Assembly (NCBI GenBank): GCA_013178155.1
Contig: JABLXH010000095.1
Span: forward strand, 1 to 33,243
Direction: 5' to 3'
Length of the DNA: 33,243 nt
Source of the DNA: Armatimonadota bacterium
GTDB lineage: Bacteria > Armatimonadota > Zipacnadia > Zipacnadales > UBA11051
Numbering within the stretch: the stretch's first letter is position 1; every line of letters starts with the position of its first letter. Shown here piece by piece: positions 4,102 to 33,243 of this stretch. A program made the position numbers and the translations under genes. The notes under the pieces were generated by a model. That model made no database searches. It was not told the origin of the DNA and was given only the letters and a program-made list of their open reading frames with translations.

Positions 4102-5808
4102 ATGCTTAAGGCCTTGCCTCTGCAGGAGAAAGCCGTTCCCGGGATGCCGGTCATCGGCGTCTTCGCCACCAGCGATCCGCGCATTGATGCCGCCAGTCGT
4201 GAGCGTTGCGTCAATATCGTCGAGATGGTTGCCAAGCACCTGGCCAAGGAGGTCAAGACGCCGCATGGGGAGGTGAAGGTGGTCTGGACCCCGGTGCTCA
4301 TTGATGGCGAGGCCCAGGCCGATGTGGTGGCCCAACAGTTCCACGCCGAGGGTGTGAACATCCTGGTGTGCGCCCCGGACACGTGGGCCTTCCCACAGCT
4401 CAGTCTCATCTCGCTGCTCTCCCAGTTCCCGGCGGATACGCCCATCAACCTGACCTGCGGCAACTCCGGCCCCAAGCCTGGCGTGGTCTTCACCCATGCG
4501 GCCAGCGGGGCCATCAGCCAGTATGGCAAGCTGATCCACATCAACGTCGGAACCTGGCCCGACACCGGGCAGAAGCCCAAGATGACCGACGCCACCGCCG
4601 AGGCACTGGTGGACTGGTGCTATGGCGCAGTCACCCGGCAGGCGCTCAAGGGACGCCGCGTGGTGATCTTTGGGCATGACTCCATGGGCATGGAGACGGC
4701 CCTGGCTCACATCATCCCCACCCGCCGCACCTTCGGCATGGAGATCACCCGCCTGGACATGAAGCTGCTGGCCGACATGCTCGCCAAGCAGGCTTACGAC
4801 GCCGAGGAGCTGAAGGCGCTCCGAGCCTGGTGCAAGCGCTACGTCGGTGACCGCGTTGAGCTTCGGGACGAGGCCGACGAGGCGCGTTTCCAGCAGTCGC
4901 TGGCGATGTACCTGATCGTACGTGACATCATGGCCGACCTGAACGCGGTCGGTGGCGGGTTCATGAGTCAGTTGGAGTGGGGGTCGGATCGCCGGGGGCT
5001 GCCGCTGCCGGTGGCGGACGTGATGGAATCGCTGTTCAACAGCACCTTCGACCACAACGGGCGCAAGGCCCCTCTCCCCTATGCCACCGAGGCCGATGTA
5101 CAGGGCCTGCTGACCATGCTGTTCTTCACCTGGCTCACCGCCGGCAACCCGCCGCTGTTCATGGATTTCCGCAAGGTGTGGGAGCCCTGGGAGATCAACG
5201 CCCTGGCGGAGAAGCTGGGCCTGGGTAACGTCGAGCCGGATGCGCTGTGGCGGCGCAAGGGCCTGGTGGATGGAGACAACTCGGGCAGCGCTGCCTTCGA
5301 CTGGGCGGCCAGGCCGGGGGCCAGTGTCAAGGAGATCATGGCCGGCGTCAGCTTCCCCCTGGCGGACGAGTTCTACTTCCCGGGCCTGGGCAACTCGGTC
5401 ACCTTCTTCACCCCGGGCGGCATTGAGGGCATCGCCGGACGCATGGCCTACAGCGCCCTGAACAACTGCTTCAGCCTGATCTGGGACGAGGCCTGCACCA
5501 CTGACCTGCCTGGCGAGCTGGGGCAGGCGGTGGCCAACACCTCCACTCCGACCTGGCCCCACACCTTCGTGGTGCCGAAGTATGCGACTATGGGCGAGTA
5601 CAAGCAGTTCGCCCCCGCCAACCACTTCCACATGACCTGGAACCTCAAGCCCGCGCGGCTGCAGTACTGGATGGATCTGGCCAATGTACTGTCAGTGACT
5701 CCGTGGCAGGCGCGACCGGGATATGTGGAAGGCGTGGACCGGCCGACACCGCTGCTGTACCTGCAGAACGGCGGCGAGAACGCGACGAAGATGATGCTTG
5801 CCCGGTAG
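4102..5808 (+). CDS. L-fucose isomerase-like enzyme (FucI/AraA superfamily)
   Basis: A 568-residue cytoplasmic protein, close to the length of L-fucose isomerase, which converts L-fucose to L-fuculose using Mn2+. The first 150 residues fit the Rossmann-like substrate domain. The middle reads NSTFDHNG (D317), and 'DNSGSAAFD' follows near residue 394; both match FucI landmarks. Likely metal ligands are E292 (QLEWGSD), D317 and H508 (PANHFH), the order seen in FucI. 'FTPGGIEG' and 'TSTPTWPHTF' near residues 435-490 fit the C-terminal domain. Exact sugar specificity is not readable; fucose, arabinose or a related deoxy sugar are possible. GGAG at 4088-4091 lies ten bases before the ATG. No kinase or aldolase gene is adjacent. 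Confidence 0.78.
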   Translation: MLKALPLQEKAVPGMPVIGVFATSDPRIDAASRERCVNIVEMVAKHLAKEVKTPHGEVKVVWTPVLIDGEAQADVVAQQFHAEGVNILVCAPDTWAFPQLSLISLLSQFPADTPINLTCGNSGPKPGVVFTHAASGAISQYGKLIHINVGTWPDTGQKPKMTDATAEALVDWCYGAVTRQALKGRRVVIFGHDSMGMETALAHIIPTRRTFGMEITRLDMKLLADMLAKQAYDAEELKALRAWCKRYVGDRVELRDEADEARFQQSLAMYLIVRDIMADLNAVGGGFMSQLEWGSDRRGLPLPVADVMESLFNSTFDHNGRKAPLPYATEADVQGLLTMLFFTWLTAGNPPLFMDFRKVWEPWEINALAEKLGLGNVEPDALWRRKGLVDGDNSGSAAFDWAARPGASVKEIMAGVSFPLADEFYFPGLGNSVTFFTPGGIEGIAGRMAYSALNNCFSLIWDEACTTDLPGELGQAVANTSTPTWPHTFVVPKYATMGEYKQFAPANHFHMTWNLKPARLQYWMDLANVLSVTPWQARPGYVEGVDRPTPLLYLQNGGENATKMMLAR

Positions 5809-26088: not shown

Positions 26089-29000
26089 CTATTCGGCTCT
26101 GAGGATCAGCCGCACCGTGGCCAGGCAGCGAGGCTGGACCTCGACCTCAAACCCTCCCTCATCCCGGTCCACCAGGCGCGCGCCGCCAGGCAGGGTCGCA
26201 TCGTCCTGCTCGACGACCGACGTCAGCCGCACCTCGGCGACAGGGCCGAGGCCGACCGCGACCCGGCCCCGGGCGGGCTGCGGCGCCGGGTTCCACAGCC
26301 GCAGGATCAGCCCACGACGATCATCCGCCAGCTTACAGGTCAGCAGTGCCAGGTAGTCGCCGGTGACTCTGAGCAGGCTGCCGCTCAGGGGCAGATGCCC
26401 CGGACGGCGACGCTCGGCGAAGATGGTCTCACAGGGCGTGACGGCCCCCCAACCCAGCCGAGTGGCCTCGGCGTCGCTGAGACTGCCCGGCGCCGTGGTC
26501 AGGCTGTAGCGGAAGAGCGCTGTGCCGGACTGCGAGACCGCGAAGTTCGTGCCGAAGTTGTTGGCAAAGAGCAGCGAATAGAGCCAGCCACGCGCCAGGA
26601 TGTCGGCAGTTGCGGGCTCGTGGTGAGCACGCTCCGGTACGCGGCAACTGTGAGCAGGCGACGTGTAGCCAGGGTGCAATTCCCCCAGCGAGACGACCGG
26701 AGCCTCCAGGCTGGACCACAGCACACTCCAGGCGCCATCACTGAGACAAACCCAGTTCTGTACGGTCACCGCGTCCCAGTAAGCGGCGGGGAGGAAGTCG
26801 CGGATGGGTTCCACCACGGCCAGCACGCTCTCATACCGCCAGCCTGGGGTCTCCAGGCGGAAGGGGAACGCCAGATAGGTCTCCAGCAACGGTGTCGGGT
26901 CCTTGAGTACGCGACACGCAAGATCCAGCCGCTTCACCCCGGCATGGAGACCCAGCGTCCAGTGGACCCGCGGATGCCCCGGCGCGAAGCTGGTGAAGCT
27001 GAGTCCGCGGTAGACGGGGCCATCGGCGCTGAGCGTGCAGCACACGGGCGCCTCGGCAGGCAGAAGCCCCTCCGGGTCGCGCACGACCAGCTCGCCCAGG
27101 CCGTGGGGCGCCCCGGCATCCAGCAGCTCCCGGTCGGCCTCGCGGTCCACGATGCTGACCACGCGGCCCGTGTCGGGATCAGCCTCGACCCGGTAGTACT
27201 CATTCTCGACGACCAGAGCACCGGGCTTGCCACCGGCCACCGTCTCCGGACGCGGCTGGGACCAGGGCTTCAGCAGGTAGGTGCGGTAACCGCCGGCTGG
27301 CAGGTCGCGGGCCACAAAACGCAGGTCTCGGCCCACCCCCGATGGTGTCTCAAAGATGCCCAGGCGCTTGCCCCCCTGCGCCAAACCGTACCTCTGCGGC
27401 GCGTATGGCATGGGGTCATGCGGCGAGGCCATTTCCACGATCTGGAAGGGCACTGCCTCGCCCGTCTCCGCGTCGAGCAGGTCGAAGTGGCCACGCAGCA
27501 CCTCCGCCGGCGGGTAGCGGTGCCAGCGGTCGGTCAGCGCCACGCCTTGCAGAAACGGCCCCGCATCCGGATCGTCGGGGTCTACGCGGCGATGCATGGT
27601 GCTACCGCAGTTCTCCAGTTCCCGCAACGGCGTGGAGACTGCCGCGGTCCGCGGGTGCGGCAGCGGGTTGTAGACCACCAGGCAGAAGCCGTCCGTCGGA
27701 AGCTCGATGTGGTCGGCGACGCGGGCCAGGTAACGGCTGATGACATCGTGCGTCACCGCGGCGGCTCGGTAAGCGTGGACCTGTTTCTCGCACTCGGAGG
27801 CCTCGGCCGCTGGTCCTGCGGGGAAGTGATGGCCCCAGGTGTGCTCGTCGTACCAGAGCACGTCCTCATAAGCTTCGTCCAGGGCCTCCGTCGCCGCAGG
27901 CAGGTCGGTAGTCGCCGCCGCCACCGTTGACAGTTGCTCAGCCACCAGCAGCCGGGCATGGTTCGCCCGGTTCACACCCGTTGCCGCTGCCGTGGACATG
28001 GCACCCACGGGGTAGTCCTGACCGGGCAACTCGCCCCGGAACACCGGAAGGTCCGGGGGAAGCTCCTCGCGCAGGTCCTGGTAGAAGCGGTCGTTGGTGC
28101 TGACAGAGAGCCGGGGGTAGGCCCAGCGTGCGTTCCACTCGCGGACGGTATGGCAGTGGTCCACGATGTAGGGCGAGTTGTCGCGCGCCCCACCGCGCAC
28201 GGGCCAGTAGACGGTCTCGTAGGGGTAGCCGGTGTCAGCCAGCTCCTGAAGCCGTTCGGCGAGACCCGGCAGGTTGGAGTGAACGTTGCCGCCGGCGCCG
28301 AAGGCCGACTCCCACAGCAGCACGCGCCGTCCGGAGGGGGCTTCCCACCAGAAACCTCCCGGGCGGCCTTGTGGGAAGAGCGCGTCATCGTCCCAGAAGG
28401 ACTGCATGGGCGGGTCGCACCAGTTCCAGTAGCGAGGGAGACCGGGGGCAAAGAACTCTATGCCCGCCTCCGTGAGCACCTGAGCCAGACCCCAGGAAAG
28501 GCCGGGGATGTCGTTGTGCTCGGCCGTGGTGATTCGGAAGCCGAAACGACGGGCAATGCGCTGGGAGGGATAGAGAGCCCGCACCAGCTCCTCGGGACCA
28601 CAGAGCTCACTGGTCATGTTGCCGAACAGCGCTGTGAGCTCGATCTGGCCGGTGCGTAGCAAGTCTCCCATGCGCGCCACCCGCTGTTCCGGTGCGCGAC
28701 GGAGGAACTCCCATAGCGACCAGGCCTGCTCGATGACCAGGCGAAACCGTGCCGCCTCGGGGAAGTCCACAGTCGCCTCGGCCATGCCGATCGCGTCGTC
28801 CAGGAAGGTGACATGCTCACGCAGCACGGCCGAGGCGAGGTTGGTGTAGCCTACGTCGTGGTGTGAGTGCTGAACCACATGCACTCGCCAGCGCCGGGGC
28901 GGCTGCCACGCGACTGTCTTCTGGCTGGTGACCGCCCCACCCGCCCGTAGCACGAAGGTCAGGTCGGCTGGTAGGCCGATGGCCGGGATGCTGGCCTCGT

Positions 29001-29193
29001 GCGCCGACTGGCCCGCAGGCAGGACGCCGAGGTCCACGTCCGCATCGGCGACCCCTCCGCGCACAAGTAGGGCGGCGCTGCACGGGGGCCCCGGATTGGC
29101 AACACTCACGCGCACGACCTGCCAGAGGTCGTCATCGGTGCCGGTGAGAAAGACGGTAGGCACGATCTCCAGCAGTGCTGGTTGGGTAGTCAC
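26089..29193 (-). CDS. GH38-type alpha-mannosidase
   Basis: A 1034-residue protein without a signal peptide, so cytoplasmic. An N-terminal beta domain (1-100) precedes the GH38 barrel. Zinc ligands fit H111 and D113 (VVQHSHHDVGYT), the nucleophile D228 (AEHNDIPGLSWG) and H451 (WYDEHTWGHH), the order seen in GH38 alpha-mannosidases, which remove terminal alpha-mannose with a retaining mechanism. The motif has Tyr where Trp is usual (DVGY). The C-terminal half (about 510-1034) is the beta-sandwich region typical of the family ('VVENEYYRVEADPDTGRVV'). GTG at 29193 follows GGAGGTG, 9 bases away, and three bases separate it from the stop of the GH2 C-terminal part. It may also act on other alpha-linked sugars. 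Confidence 0.83.
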   Translation of the reverse strand: MTTQPALLEIVPTVFLTGTDDDLWQVVRVSVANPGPPCSAALLVRGGVADADVDLGVLPAGQSAHEASIPAIGLPADLTFVLRAGGAVTSQKTVAWQPPRRWRVHVVQHSHHDVGYTNLASAVLREHVTFLDDAIGMAEATVDFPEAARFRLVIEQAWSLWEFLRRAPEQRVARMGDLLRTGQIELTALFGNMTSELCGPEELVRALYPSQRIARRFGFRITTAEHNDIPGLSWGLAQVLTEAGIEFFAPGLPRYWNWCDPPMQSFWDDDALFPQGRPGGFWWEAPSGRRVLLWESAFGAGGNVHSNLPGLAERLQELADTGYPYETVYWPVRGGARDNSPYIVDHCHTVREWNARWAYPRLSVSTNDRFYQDLREELPPDLPVFRGELPGQDYPVGAMSTAAATGVNRANHARLLVAEQLSTVAAATTDLPAATEALDEAYEDVLWYDEHTWGHHFPAGPAAEASECEKQVHAYRAAAVTHDVISRYLARVADHIELPTDGFCLVVYNPLPHPRTAAVSTPLRELENCGSTMHRRVDPDDPDAGPFLQGVALTDRWHRYPPAEVLRGHFDLLDAETGEAVPFQIVEMASPHDPMPYAPQRYGLAQGGKRLGIFETPSGVGRDLRFVARDLPAGGYRTYLLKPWSQPRPETVAGGKPGALVVENEYYRVEADPDTGRVVSIVDREADRELLDAGAPHGLGELVVRDPEGLLPAEAPVCCTLSADGPVYRGLSFTSFAPGHPRVHWTLGLHAGVKRLDLACRVLKDPTPLLETYLAFPFRLETPGWRYESVLAVVEPIRDFLPAAYWDAVTVQNWVCLSDGAWSVLWSSLEAPVVSLGELHPGYTSPAHSCRVPERAHHEPATADILARGWLYSLLFANNFGTNFAVSQSGTALFRYSLTTAPGSLSDAEATRLGWGAVTPCETIFAERRRPGHLPLSGSLLRVTGDYLALLTCKLADDRRGLILRLWNPAPQPARGRVAVGLGPVAEVRLTSVVEQDDATLPGGARLVDRDEGGFEVEVQPRCLATVRLILRAE

Positions 29194-29196
29194 TGG

Positions 29197-29772
29197 CTAC
29201 TGCACCTCCGCGAGGGTCACCGGCACATTCCAGCCCTCGACTTCTACCCGCAGGCCCGGCCCGGCGCCACCGTGCACGGCAGCAACGGTTTTGCACTCCC
29301 CTGGCAGCAGTGAGAAGTAATTGTCCTCCCAGTACACCGGACGCACCTCCTGACCTGCCGCATCGAGCAGGCGCAGCTTCATGAAGAAGGCCAGGTGGTC
29401 GGTGGGGTTGGTCAGGGCGACCTGGCAGGTCCCCTCCGCGCTTGCTCTCCCTCTCCACCCTGTGGAGAGGGGGTCGGGGGGTGAGGTGACCGTAACCTCC
29501 GCCGGTGGCAGGTCCTCCAACTCCCGCAGACACGGCGTATCGCGGGGCACCGCCAGGGGCTTGTCGGCGGGGAACTGGTGCAGGTCGCCGCGGAAGGCGA
29601 TGTCATAGTCGTCCAAGCGCGGCGAGAGCCAGTAGAAGTTGTCCGCCAACACCTCTCCCCCGGCATCGCGCAGCACCAGCTTGACGAAGTACACCGCCGC
29701 CTCTTGCACCGATATGGGCTGAGGGATGAGAAAAGCATCGGTGTAGCTGTTGGCCGGGGCGTCCACCGGGCC
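29197..29772 (-). pseudogene. C-terminal part of the GH2 gene after an in-frame stop
   Basis: About 190 codons in the same frame as the GH2 gene upstream, separated from it only by TAA at 29775-29773. It reads from GPVDAPANSYTDAF through 'AVYFVKLVLRDAGGE', 'DNFYWLSPRLDDYD' and 'VYWEDNYFSLLPGECKTV', the last two beta-sandwich domains of GH2 beta-mannosidases. It has no start signal beyond a weak AAGG before GTG at 29766. Independent translation would give a free domain of 189 residues with no active site. It therefore belongs to the GH2 enzyme. The segment SPPDPLSTGWRGRA inside it is encoded by an inserted palindromic repeat. Confidence 0.8.
29449..29486. repeat. Palindromic repeat inserted in the GH2 tail
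   Basis: CCCTCTCCAC (29449-29458) pairs exactly with GTGGAGAGGG (29462-29471) around a three-base loop, and GTCGGGGGGTGAGG follows to 29486. Read on the minus strand this is the CCTCACCCCCCGACCCCCTCTCC type of hairpin repeat scattered through many GC-rich bacterial genomes. It is in frame and adds SPPDPLSTGWRGRA between two beta strands of the GH2 C-terminal domain. Only one copy was noticed in this window. Confidence 0.65.
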
Positions 29773-31971
29773 TTACTGGTCGTGCAGGACACGCAGGGAC
29801 AAGTCGTAGATGACCGCCTGGACCTCAAGCCCCGCGGCATCGGTGAAGGTGTTGTTGACCACCGACACCATGCCGTCGAGCGGGCAGAGCTGGACCGCGA
29901 AGCGAGCGCACGCCTTGCGAATGGCGAACATGCTGGGCATGGGGCGCAGGAACCAGTCGTGGATCTGCCACTGGATGTCGGGGAAGGCGCTGTTGAGCTT
30001 CCATTCACCGAAGCCGCTGGTGATCTCCCACATGCGGTGGTGCACAGCCTCAAAGAAGGCTCGGTGCTGGTCGTAGGTGGTCAGGTGTGCCTTCCACACA
30101 TAGTCGCGCAGGTCCCGCGGCTCACCATAGAGCAACCGCAGGCCGCGATCAAACCACTCGTAATAGGAGTTGGCTCCGTAGTGGGCCCAGGCCTCATCGA
30201 GCGGATAACGCGGGTCCGAGCCGTCGTTCGGCGCCAGCTCAAGCAGGTGCGGCATGAAGGTGAGGAGGCTTTCCACCGGCGGCACCGATGCCGCGCCGCT
30301 CTCGATCATGAACATCCAGTTGCGCTGGTGGCGCACAAAGTCATAGTAGACCCACGGGAGCTGCCAGCCGTAGGACTTGGGCGTGTAGTCATTGCAGCCC
30401 GCCGGTAACTCTCGCGCAAACCAGTCAGGGATGTCTGTGCGGTAGTCCGGGAAGGAACCCGAGGGGATCAGGAAGCGCGTGTCGTCTTGGGCCAGGACCG
30501 TGCGGCGCCACATCTCATAGACATCCTGGCGCGTCTCGCCCTCGTTCTGGGCCATGTGGACCACCACCGACGGATGGTTGCGGTAGCGCCTGGCGATGTC
30601 CACGGTCGCGTCCTCCAGCACCTGAAGGTCCACGTCCCAGGGGCGGTTGTACTGCAGCCAGTAGCAGTCATAGAAGCAAGTCCAGAACATGAGGCCATAC
30701 TGGTCACATAGGTCCAGGAACCAGTCGGGCGGATTGGGGATGTCCTCAAAAGCCACGTAGTTAAGGTGGGCGTGGGCGAGATAGCGGATTTCGGCCTCTG
30801 CGCGCGCACGGTCCCAGTCGAACATCATCTCCGGCTGGATGTAGCCGCCGCGCTGGAAGATGCGCTGACCGTTGACGTACAGCCGGAAGCCGTGGGCTCC
30901 GTCCAGTTCATACAGCTCCCGGTCCAGCCGCCGGATGCCGAAGGTTGTCTCCACTCTCGTGGGCGGGGTCTCCAGACGCCGGTGGGCGAAAGACAGCTCC
31001 AAGTGATACAGCGGCTGCTCCCCGTAGGTGTTGGGCCACCACAGCCGCGGGTTGGCCAGAGATAGCTCCGCCGCGTCGTTCGGCGTCACGGTGATGAGCT
31101 GCGTCTCGTGGCTCAGCAGTGTCACCGGTCGCGCGAACCGCGCGACCACCTGGCCTTCGGGGTCCGTGACCGTCCCCTCCAGCGTGCCACGGACAGACCG
31201 CGACGAGGCATTGACCAACTCCGCCGAGACTGTCAGCCGCGCCGGGTTCAGGTCCGGCAGGTCCAGGTTGGCCCGCACGAAGGGGTGGCGGATGTCCACC
31301 GGGCCGGTGACATCGAGGGTCATCTCCTGCACCAGCCCCATGTTGCGGTCGGGCACGGTGGGAAAACAGTCGTAGCCGATGGTCATGACCTCGGTAACAT
31401 CGTTGCAGATGTCCTTGTGGAATTCCCGGACAGGGCCAAACACCTCGAGTTGCGTGTCCGGGGTGCCCGGATGGTCCACCGGGTATACCAGGATCGCCAG
31501 CGCATTGGGGCCGGGCCGCACAGCCTCGGTCACCTCCAGTCGGAAGCGACGGAACATGCCAACGAGCTGCTCACGGTCGGCCAGGAGCTGGCCGTTGAGC
31601 CAAACGTCGGCGCGGTAGTTGAGGCAGTTCAGCGTCAGCCAGAGCCGCTGATCCGCAGCCAGTTCGGGGCTAGCAAACTCGATGCGGTACCACCAGGGAT
31701 CGCGCCAGGGGTTGTGCTCGTCGGGAAGGTGGCTGAACTGAGCCAGGCTATGGGTGGCATTGAACTCATCCGAGGAGTCGGGGATGCGCATGGCGTTGGG
31801 CCAGAAGCGCGGGTCAGGGTAGGTGCCGTCATGGACTAGGCTGCACAGCACGGTGCTAGGGACGACGGTCTCATGCCAGCCCGCCACTTCGGCCCCAGGT
31901 AACGAAAGCGCAACGCCGTCCCGCCCTGCGAGGTAACAGGTCTGCAGTTGCCAGCCATCGCGTAGGTCCAT
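29773..31971 (-). CDS. GH2 beta-mannosidase-like enzyme, cut short by TAA
   Basis: A 732-residue protein with the GH2 layout: a sugar-binding jelly roll (about 1-190, 'DPWWYRIEFASP', 'LNYRADVWLNGQLL'), an Ig-like domain (about 215-345) and a TIM barrel (about 365-700). The acid/base is E477 in MAQNEGE and the nucleophile E557 in FMIESGAAS. Relatives include mannosylglycoprotein endo-beta-mannosidase and exo-beta-glucosaminidase; the exact substrate is not readable. No signal peptide, so cytoplasmic. The ATG at 31971 follows GGAG by about eight bases; GTG at 32013 is a weaker start. Translation ends inside a beta domain ('YDLSLRVLHDQ', TAA) although the same frame continues for 190 codons. The barrel is complete, so activity may remain. 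First gene of the operon. Confidence 0.83.
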   Translation of the reverse strand: MDLRDGWQLQTCYLAGRDGVALSLPGAEVAGWHETVVPSTVLCSLVHDGTYPDPRFWPNAMRIPDSSDEFNATHSLAQFSHLPDEHNPWRDPWWYRIEFASPELAADQRLWLTLNCLNYRADVWLNGQLLADREQLVGMFRRFRLEVTEAVRPGPNALAILVYPVDHPGTPDTQLEVFGPVREFHKDICNDVTEVMTIGYDCFPTVPDRNMGLVQEMTLDVTGPVDIRHPFVRANLDLPDLNPARLTVSAELVNASSRSVRGTLEGTVTDPEGQVVARFARPVTLLSHETQLITVTPNDAAELSLANPRLWWPNTYGEQPLYHLELSFAHRRLETPPTRVETTFGIRRLDRELYELDGAHGFRLYVNGQRIFQRGGYIQPEMMFDWDRARAEAEIRYLAHAHLNYVAFEDIPNPPDWFLDLCDQYGLMFWTCFYDCYWLQYNRPWDVDLQVLEDATVDIARRYRNHPSVVVHMAQNEGETRQDVYEMWRRTVLAQDDTRFLIPSGSFPDYRTDIPDWFARELPAGCNDYTPKSYGWQLPWVYYDFVRHQRNWMFMIESGAASVPPVESLLTFMPHLLELAPNDGSDPRYPLDEAWAHYGANSYYEWFDRGLRLLYGEPRDLRDYVWKAHLTTYDQHRAFFEAVHHRMWEITSGFGEWKLNSAFPDIQWQIHDWFLRPMPSMFAIRKACARFAVQLCPLDGMVSVVNNTFTDAAGLEVQAVIYDLSLRVLHDQ

Positions 31972-32158
31972 CGGTCTTCTCCAAGAGCACGGTTTGGGTG
32001 CGGCCGGCTCCACATTGCTGGTTCACCGCCGCCGCAGGTTCCCCGGACTGGTTCCGGTTCCCTCTGGCGCGGGCGGTCGGCAGGGATAGCCTGAGTATTG
32101 CTGGAAATGGCCCCGTGGAAAGCAGACCATAGTACGCCGATCAGGAGGGCGATTCGGG
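31972..32158. other. Divergent intergenic region with no clear promoter
   Basis: The 187 bases between the GH2 start and the rightward secreted-protein gene must hold promoters for both, including the long operon. No -35/-10 pair with good spacing was found on either strand; TAGTAC at 32130-32135 and TACTAT on the minus strand are only partial -10 matches. AGGAGGG at 32143-32149 is the ribosome-binding site of the rightward gene. An alternative sigma factor or regulated promoter is possible. Confidence 0.4.
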
Positions 32159-33243
32159 TTGACCACGAGAGCTCTGCTGACAGCACTCGTCCTGGCTATC
32201 TGGGCCCCGGCCGAAGCGGCCCCACCGGTCGTGGATGAGCCACTCGGGGCCCGCTACTCGCTGGGTATGACGCTGTGGCACATGGGGCGGGACGCGCCAA
32301 CGATCGTGCGCTTCCACGAATTCCTGCGCAGCCAGGGCTTGGGCCCCCAGAAGCTGCTCCCCAGGGAGGCCCTCGCCGTCCCCAAGGACCTGCAACGGGT
32401 CCTGCTGGACTTTGAGCTGGCCACCCCTGAGCAACTCAACGGCTGGCAGGTACAAGGTGAGTGCGCCGTCAGTGCGGCCACGGACGCCGGTCCAACACTG
32501 AGTATCCCGCTGCATGTGCCCAGGAGCAGCACCTACCGCCTCTGGGTACGCTACCTGGGGCGCCCTGAAGCCAGGGCGGTAACCGCCCTGCGTGTGTACC
32601 GGGCAGGAGAGGAGCATCTTGGCCCTGTTCACCAGGCTGAGGAGGTCTACGCCGAGCCACCACCCGAGGCCGGGCCGGCATGGCATGGGTTCATCATGGA
32701 CCTGGCCGCCGGTGACTATGTGGTCAAGCTCAGTCATGTCACGCGCTGGTGGCACGGTGGAGGACACTATGACCTGCGGCAGATGGACTGCCTGTACTTG
32801 ACCGAGGAGCTGTGGGCCTCACCACCAACAAGCGAACAGCTCCAGGCTATGCGGGACGCCAGGGAGGCCGACGGCGTTCAGCGGACGTGGACCGTTCCCC
32901 TGGCCACGGCAGAGCGTGAGACCTGGCAGTGGTGGCAGGTGCGCCCCCTGTCCTGGGAAGACCGGCTGGCCAGACCGGAGCTGTTTGCACTGAGCCGACG
33001 CTTCTGGCAGCAGACGGTGTCGGCACTGGCAGCCAGGGACTATCCTGAAACGCGTGAAGGGCTTCCGGACTACCGTGCCCCCGAGCGTCAGGTCGTCTTC
33101 GATGAGACGTGGAACATGGTGGCCAATCCGGTGCGGGCCCGGCGCCAGCAGCAGACGCTTCTGGCGGATGTCCAGACGACCCCTCTCCCCTATCATTATG
33201 TCTGGCATGACATCGCCGGCAACATCCCCGACCTGACCGCGCC
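32159..33243 (+). CDS. Secreted protein of unknown function (N-terminal part)
   Basis: An open frame of about 361 codons that runs off the right edge. TTG at 32159 is the likely start, ten bases after AGGAGG (32143-32148). It encodes the signal peptide TTRALLTALVLAIWAPAEA. A short helical region ('RFHEFLRSQGLG') is followed by a beta sandwich at about residues 95-225 ('STYRLWVRYLGRPEARAV', 'AAGDYVVKLSHV', 'QMDCLYLTEELW'), which looks like a carbohydrate-binding-type domain. The following part ('TWQWWQVRPLSWEDRLARPE') is not recognised. It diverges from the GH2-led operon, so it may be a linked binding or degrading protein, but that is inference. The rest of the protein is outside the window. 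Confidence 0.7.
   Translation, partial: MTTRALLTALVLAIWAPAEAAPPVVDEPLGARYSLGMTLWHMGRDAPTIVRFHEFLRSQGLGPQKLLPREALAVPKDLQRVLLDFELATPEQLNGWQVQGECAVSAATDAGPTLSIPLHVPRSSTYRLWVRYLGRPEARAVTALRVYRAGEEHLGPVHQAEEVYAEPPPEAGPAWHGFIMDLAAGDYVVKLSHVTRWWHGGGHYDLRQMDCLYLTEELWASPPTSEQLQAMRDAREADGVQRTWTVPLATAERETWQWWQVRPLSWEDRLARPELFALSRRFWQQTVSALAARDYPETREGLPDYRAPERQVVFDETWNMVANPVRARRQQQTLLADVQTTPLPYHYVWHDIAGNIPDLTA

Follow-up and report, generated by a model that had tools for sequence, protein, structure and literature searches.

A gene of glycoside hydrolase family 2 (GH2) in a draft Armatimonadota genome has probably been interrupted by a recent nonsense substitution that is confined to a single lineage; the gene encodes a five-domain protein related to exo-beta-D-glucosaminidase. 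It lies on the minus strand of the window, the whole 33,243-nucleotide stretch of contig JABLXH010000095.1 that was analyzed. From the most plausible start, the ATG at 31971, the frame runs for 732 codons to an in-frame TAA (29775-29773), continues past it for 191 sense codons (29772-29200) and closes with a TAG (29199-29197), with no further stop or frameshift in between, so that the preliminary description of this DNA, which had reported about 190 additional codons in the same frame, was accurate on this point. Base shuffling leaves the tail without an in-frame stop in only 0.9% of cases. The tail matches the Pfam domains Ig_GlcNase (E 1e-24), Ig_mannosidase and the second half of Mannosidase_ig, as anticipated when it was described as encoding the missing C-terminal beta domains. 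In the read-through translation, the two halves of Mannosidase_ig join into a single domain that bridges the stop, and the same domain spans this site in L009 and L083, two homologues that lack the interruption. The source genome is an assembly of 211 contigs, and the TAA is known from the assembly consensus. The features of the locus are collected in Table 1.

Table 1. Coordinates of the interrupted GH2 gene, its sequence features and the adjacent gene (positions in the window)
Feature	Position	Strand	Basis or remark
GH2 gene, N-terminal part (head), 732 codons + TAA	29773..31971	-	Sugar-binding domain, Ig domain, catalytic barrel, first half of Mannosidase_ig
In-frame TAA, codon 733	29773..29775	-	Ser, Gln or Thr in homologues of the clade
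GH2 gene, C-terminal part (tail), 191 codons + TAG	29197..29772	-	Frame, Pfam, homologues
Mannosidase_ig domain, split by the stop	29620..29868	-	Residues 702-784; residue 733 within predicted strand 728-738
Ig_GlcNase domain (PF18368), sole copy in genome	29224..29529	-	Pfam
Asn476-Glu477, catalytic acid/base doublet, intact in head	30541..30546	-	Alignment
Glu557, catalytic nucleophile position, intact in head	30301..30303	-	Alignment
Glu409, loop-2 position (Trp in beta-mannosidases, Glu in GH2_16)	30745..30747	-	Alignment
GTG just past the stop, possible but weak restart site	29764..29766	-	Ribosome-binding score
Copy of dispersed palindromic repeat, in frame	29444..29492	-	Linker between the two C-terminal GH2 domains
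GH38 alpha-mannosidase-like gene	26089..29193	-	Starts 3 bases past the GH2 stop TAG

The principal evidence comes from the homologues. The search covered the contigs of the source genome and of 60 related genomes, the latter nearly all metagenome assemblies, and the close homologues that it yielded make up a small clade, in which several members come from Armatimonadetes assemblies. Five homologues with about 65-68% identity (L009, L043/L083, L044, L013 and L010/L045) are uninterrupted across the site, and the fragment L046 and the more distant L012 and L014 (about 44% identity) are likewise continuous through codon 733. The TAA is absent from every one of these eight homologues (five close ones, one fragment and two distant ones), and none of the relatives covering the site has a separate gene for the tail; the stop is therefore specific to the source genome. 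A natural stop followed by a separate second gene is ruled out by the continuous homologues. The locus in related genomes, a comparison already outlined in the preliminary description, is thus one continuous gene that does not end at codon 733, and the codon here is a lineage-specific nonsense codon. Residue 733 is serine in L009, L043, L044, L010 and L046, with the codons TCG, TCC, AGC and TCA in the closest relatives, glutamine in L013 and L012, and threonine in L014; glutamate occurs at this position in distant relatives only, which speaks against the GAA-to-TAA change that was originally suggested. No replacement paralogue was detected: the next GH2 protein in the genome is about 28% identical. 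A literature search on GH2 pseudogenes in Armatimonadetes returned little.

The tail shows no clear decay, and the stop is therefore either recent or not real. GC content by codon position is 0.70/0.46/0.83 in the tail versus 0.65/0.43/0.85 in the head, and the family motifs ADNFYWLSPR, DNYFSLLPGE and GWN are kept. Over residues 734-846, the identity between the window protein and L009 is 0.565, with most other pairs at 0.44-0.55. The last 45-50 residues are slightly more diverged (identity of 0.47-0.58 for the window protein versus 0.48-0.73 for the relatives), and this small excess could represent relaxation after an older stop; the L010 branch is nearly as long as that of the window protein in this segment. 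With the topology fixed, the ratio of the tail to head terminal branches is about 3.7 for the window protein, compared with 4.4, 4.1, 2.6 and 1.4 for L010, L044, L013 and L009, respectively. At this divergence, saturation of synonymous sites is to be expected.

If the stop is not real, the TAA would be a wrong consensus base, resulting from a sequencing error or from mixed strains, and the gene would be intact in the living cell. We consider this explanation, the main rival of a real nonsense mutation, rather unlikely, albeit worth taking seriously: the source genome is a fragmented draft, the relatives are known almost entirely from metagenomes, the tail is not clearly decayed, and a gap-made false frameshift does occur in a homologue, in that the seemingly broken copy in G004 (L085) contains two N at 5726-5727 rather than a mutation. 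However, only 230 of the 6588 single substitutions in the head create a stop, so that such an error should be rare, and the gene shows no other error. From the beginning, nonsense mutation and assembly error had been preferred to a normal stop, and the continuous homologues together with the conserved tail support this preference. The likelihoods that we attach to this and the other explanations are matters of judgement and were not computed.

Stop-codon usage adds little to the case. It had been argued that a lone TAA among genes ending in TAG or TGA made a normal stop improbable, but TAA is an ordinary stop in the source genome. In about 400 kb of this genome (all genome-wide figures given here come from samples), mechanically selected ORFs (100 codons or more) end with TGA in 146 cases, with TAG in 118 and with TAA in 33 (33/297, about 11%), and 19 genes would all lack a TAA stop with a probability of about 0.11. 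The idea that TAA is so rare as to be suspicious is hence ruled out, the argument from stop usage is weak, and it is the homologues that carry the case. The window counts themselves (14 TAG, 5 TGA and 1 TAA) were reproduced by mechanical ORF selection, although one of the counted 'genes', the minus-strand ORF at 32141-32767, is probably not a gene. It overlies a plus-strand gene (32159-33243) that is divergent from the GH2 gene, runs off the window, and has a signal-peptide-like start, with a TTG after AGGAGG; no Pfam match was obtained for this gene. As a separate observation, the preference for TAG over TGA is stronger in the window (14:5) than in the genome sample (118:146; Fisher p 0.017); TGA is described as the commoner of these two stops in most prokaryotes (PMC10471768).

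The location of the stop within the fold bears on the explanations that involve a functional product. An AlphaFold2 model of the read-through protein, with 14 relatives included in the input, has a mean pLDDT of 84 and a pTM of 0.89, and residue 733 is located inside a strand of a beta sandwich that is modeled with pLDDT above 90. A stop in mid-strand, with one domain half-built and the last one lost, argues against a useful short form as well as against two cooperating polypeptides. The latter arrangement, whereby the head ends at the TAA, the tail is translated from the GTG at 29766 and the two parts associate, appears highly improbable. It is true that a GTG is found just past the stop and that the tail has stayed open and conserved, but the ribosome-binding score before this GTG is equalled by 45% of random 20-mers, compared with 1.2% for the start of the adjacent GH38 gene, so that restart at this codon was rejected for want of a convincing ribosome-binding site; furthermore, the tail is not a separate gene in any relative, and the predicted break falls in the middle of a domain.

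Programmed or suppressor-driven readthrough of the TAA, which would give rise to short and full-length isoforms and which the preliminary description had listed as an option, is more improbable still, no feature supporting it having been found. The conservation of the tail is compatible with readthrough, and a survey of bacterial genes argues that isolated in-frame stops are often read through, over short evolutionary times (PMC7918605). The stops in that survey resemble the present one in that they are single, involve no frameshift, leave the remainder conserved and are evolutionarily short-lived; the survey, however, required the stop to be present in two or more genomes, whereas here it is found in one genome only. 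Against readthrough, the stop is common to no relative, the genome encodes two release factors (PCRF), as expected for RF1 and RF2, and the 44 Rfam tRNA hits, an incomplete set in which Asp and Trp were missing, included no suppressor tRNA with the anticodon TTA; the short form, moreover, would end in mid-strand. When 590 kb of the genome were scanned for coding potential, the GH2 junction ranked third; most of the junctions ranked around it are normal gene boundaries, with a start codon no more than a few codons away. Besides the GH2 junction, a single TAA junction exceeded the threshold, with a weaker signal; no other TAA junction in the 590 kb has a comparably strong two-sided coding signal. 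Among the weaker in-frame stops, five with late start codons gave no match to Pfam. It is equally hard to credit that this lineage reads TAA through at a useful rate and, by making two GH2 forms, tunes the coupled GH38 gene.

The features that define the GH2 family, namely the sugar-binding, Ig and barrel domains, the Asn-Glu acid/base and the Glu nucleophile, are all present: PF22666 and PF00703 score above the cut-off and PF02836 just below it, and N476, E477 and E557 are invariant in 15 sequences. The assignment to a subfamily is less straightforward. Beta-mannosidases have Trp at loop 2, and GH2_16 beta-glucosaminidases have Glu at this position along with Ser-Asp replacing the Asn-Glu acid/base (PMC12243196). 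Glu409 of the window protein, which aligns by sequence with the Glu of the CsxA motif 'RLEGHIE', is shared by the six nearest homologues in the alignment, with Trp in the distant ones. Glu instead of His at loop 2 and a C-terminal Ig_GlcNase (PF18368, 87 bits versus a cut-off of 26.3) are those of GH2_16, but the strictly conserved Ser-Asp doublet of that subfamily is not found, Asn-Glu being present in its stead, and the loop-2 Trp of the beta-mannosidases (GH2_13/GH2_17) is lacking as well.

CsxA, the exo-beta-D-glucosaminidase of Amycolatopsis orientalis (PDB 2VZS/2X09, GH2_16), is the top match both by sequence (residues 17-917, E 7e-66) and by predicted fold (TM 0.82-0.89). The two proteins have the same domains, including Ig_GlcNase, and the same loop-2 residue, but they are only 24% identical, CsxA has Ser-Asp where the window protein has Asn-Glu, and the window copy is split by the TAA. 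The GH2_13 beta-mannosidases, such as that of Bacteroides thetaiotaomicron (PDB 2JE8), are similar in overall architecture, in the Mannosidase_ig and Ig_mannosidase matches and in the Asn-Glu acid/base; they differ in having Trp at loop 2, and the fold match is weaker (TM 0.69-0.79). The original label of beta-mannosidase thus finds no support, and, judging from these sequence features, we call the protein a GH2_16-like enzyme with an unassigned substrate that fits neither subfamily definition in full. With a Glu at loop 2 as in GH2_16 and an Asn-Glu doublet as in other GH2 subfamilies, the clade may constitute an uncharacterised GH2 subgroup.

The GH2 gene belongs to a glycan-degradation neighbourhood that extends over 4102-31971 of the window and includes L-fucose isomerase, GH129-like, GH5-like, GH38 and GH2 genes and genes for DUF4855 proteins. 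The order GH2-GH38 is also found in G004, and the strong ribosome-binding site of the GH38 gene (about 29204-29209) is located within the last GH2 codons.

The palindrome in the GH2 tail is one copy of a repeat of about 45-60 bp, with the core CCTCTCC...GGAGAGG, that is dispersed in the source genome and related genomes and is also found within other long frames. Copies flank the single strong DUF559 nuclease-like domain of the genome (G000:C194:804-3524; L088, L139), and this domain, along with the flanking palindromes, forms part of the reading frame of a 1543-codon gene for an Eco57I-type restriction methylase (L088:331-4959, G000:C194). In the source and related genomes, palindromes adjoin 8 of the 17 strong DUF559 loci, compared with a sampled background of about 0.1 copies per 10 kb in the source genome; besides the window and C194, the loci recorded for this observation are L144, L148, L151, L153, L156, L157 and L158. 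These observations suggest a DUF559-linked mobile palindrome, perhaps comparable, by analogy, to the REP/RAYT systems. A literature search on DUF559 palindromes returned little, and no paper on the repeat.

Under the favored explanation, a recent nonsense substitution, translation would terminate at the TAA to give a 732-residue product. The catalytic glutamates 477 and 557 would both be retained, but the break would fall within a beta strand of the fourth domain, and the fifth domain would be absent; such a product would probably be misfolded or inactive. The GH38 gene may lose its translational coupling to GH2, although it has a strong ribosome-binding site of its own. The message of this case is mostly one of caution. 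An annotation would list the gene as two proteins or as a pseudogene, and the truncated gene call would mislead the reading of the glycan-degradation cluster. Should the base be wrong, the cluster would be intact; should it be right, the lineage would be losing one enzyme of the pathway.
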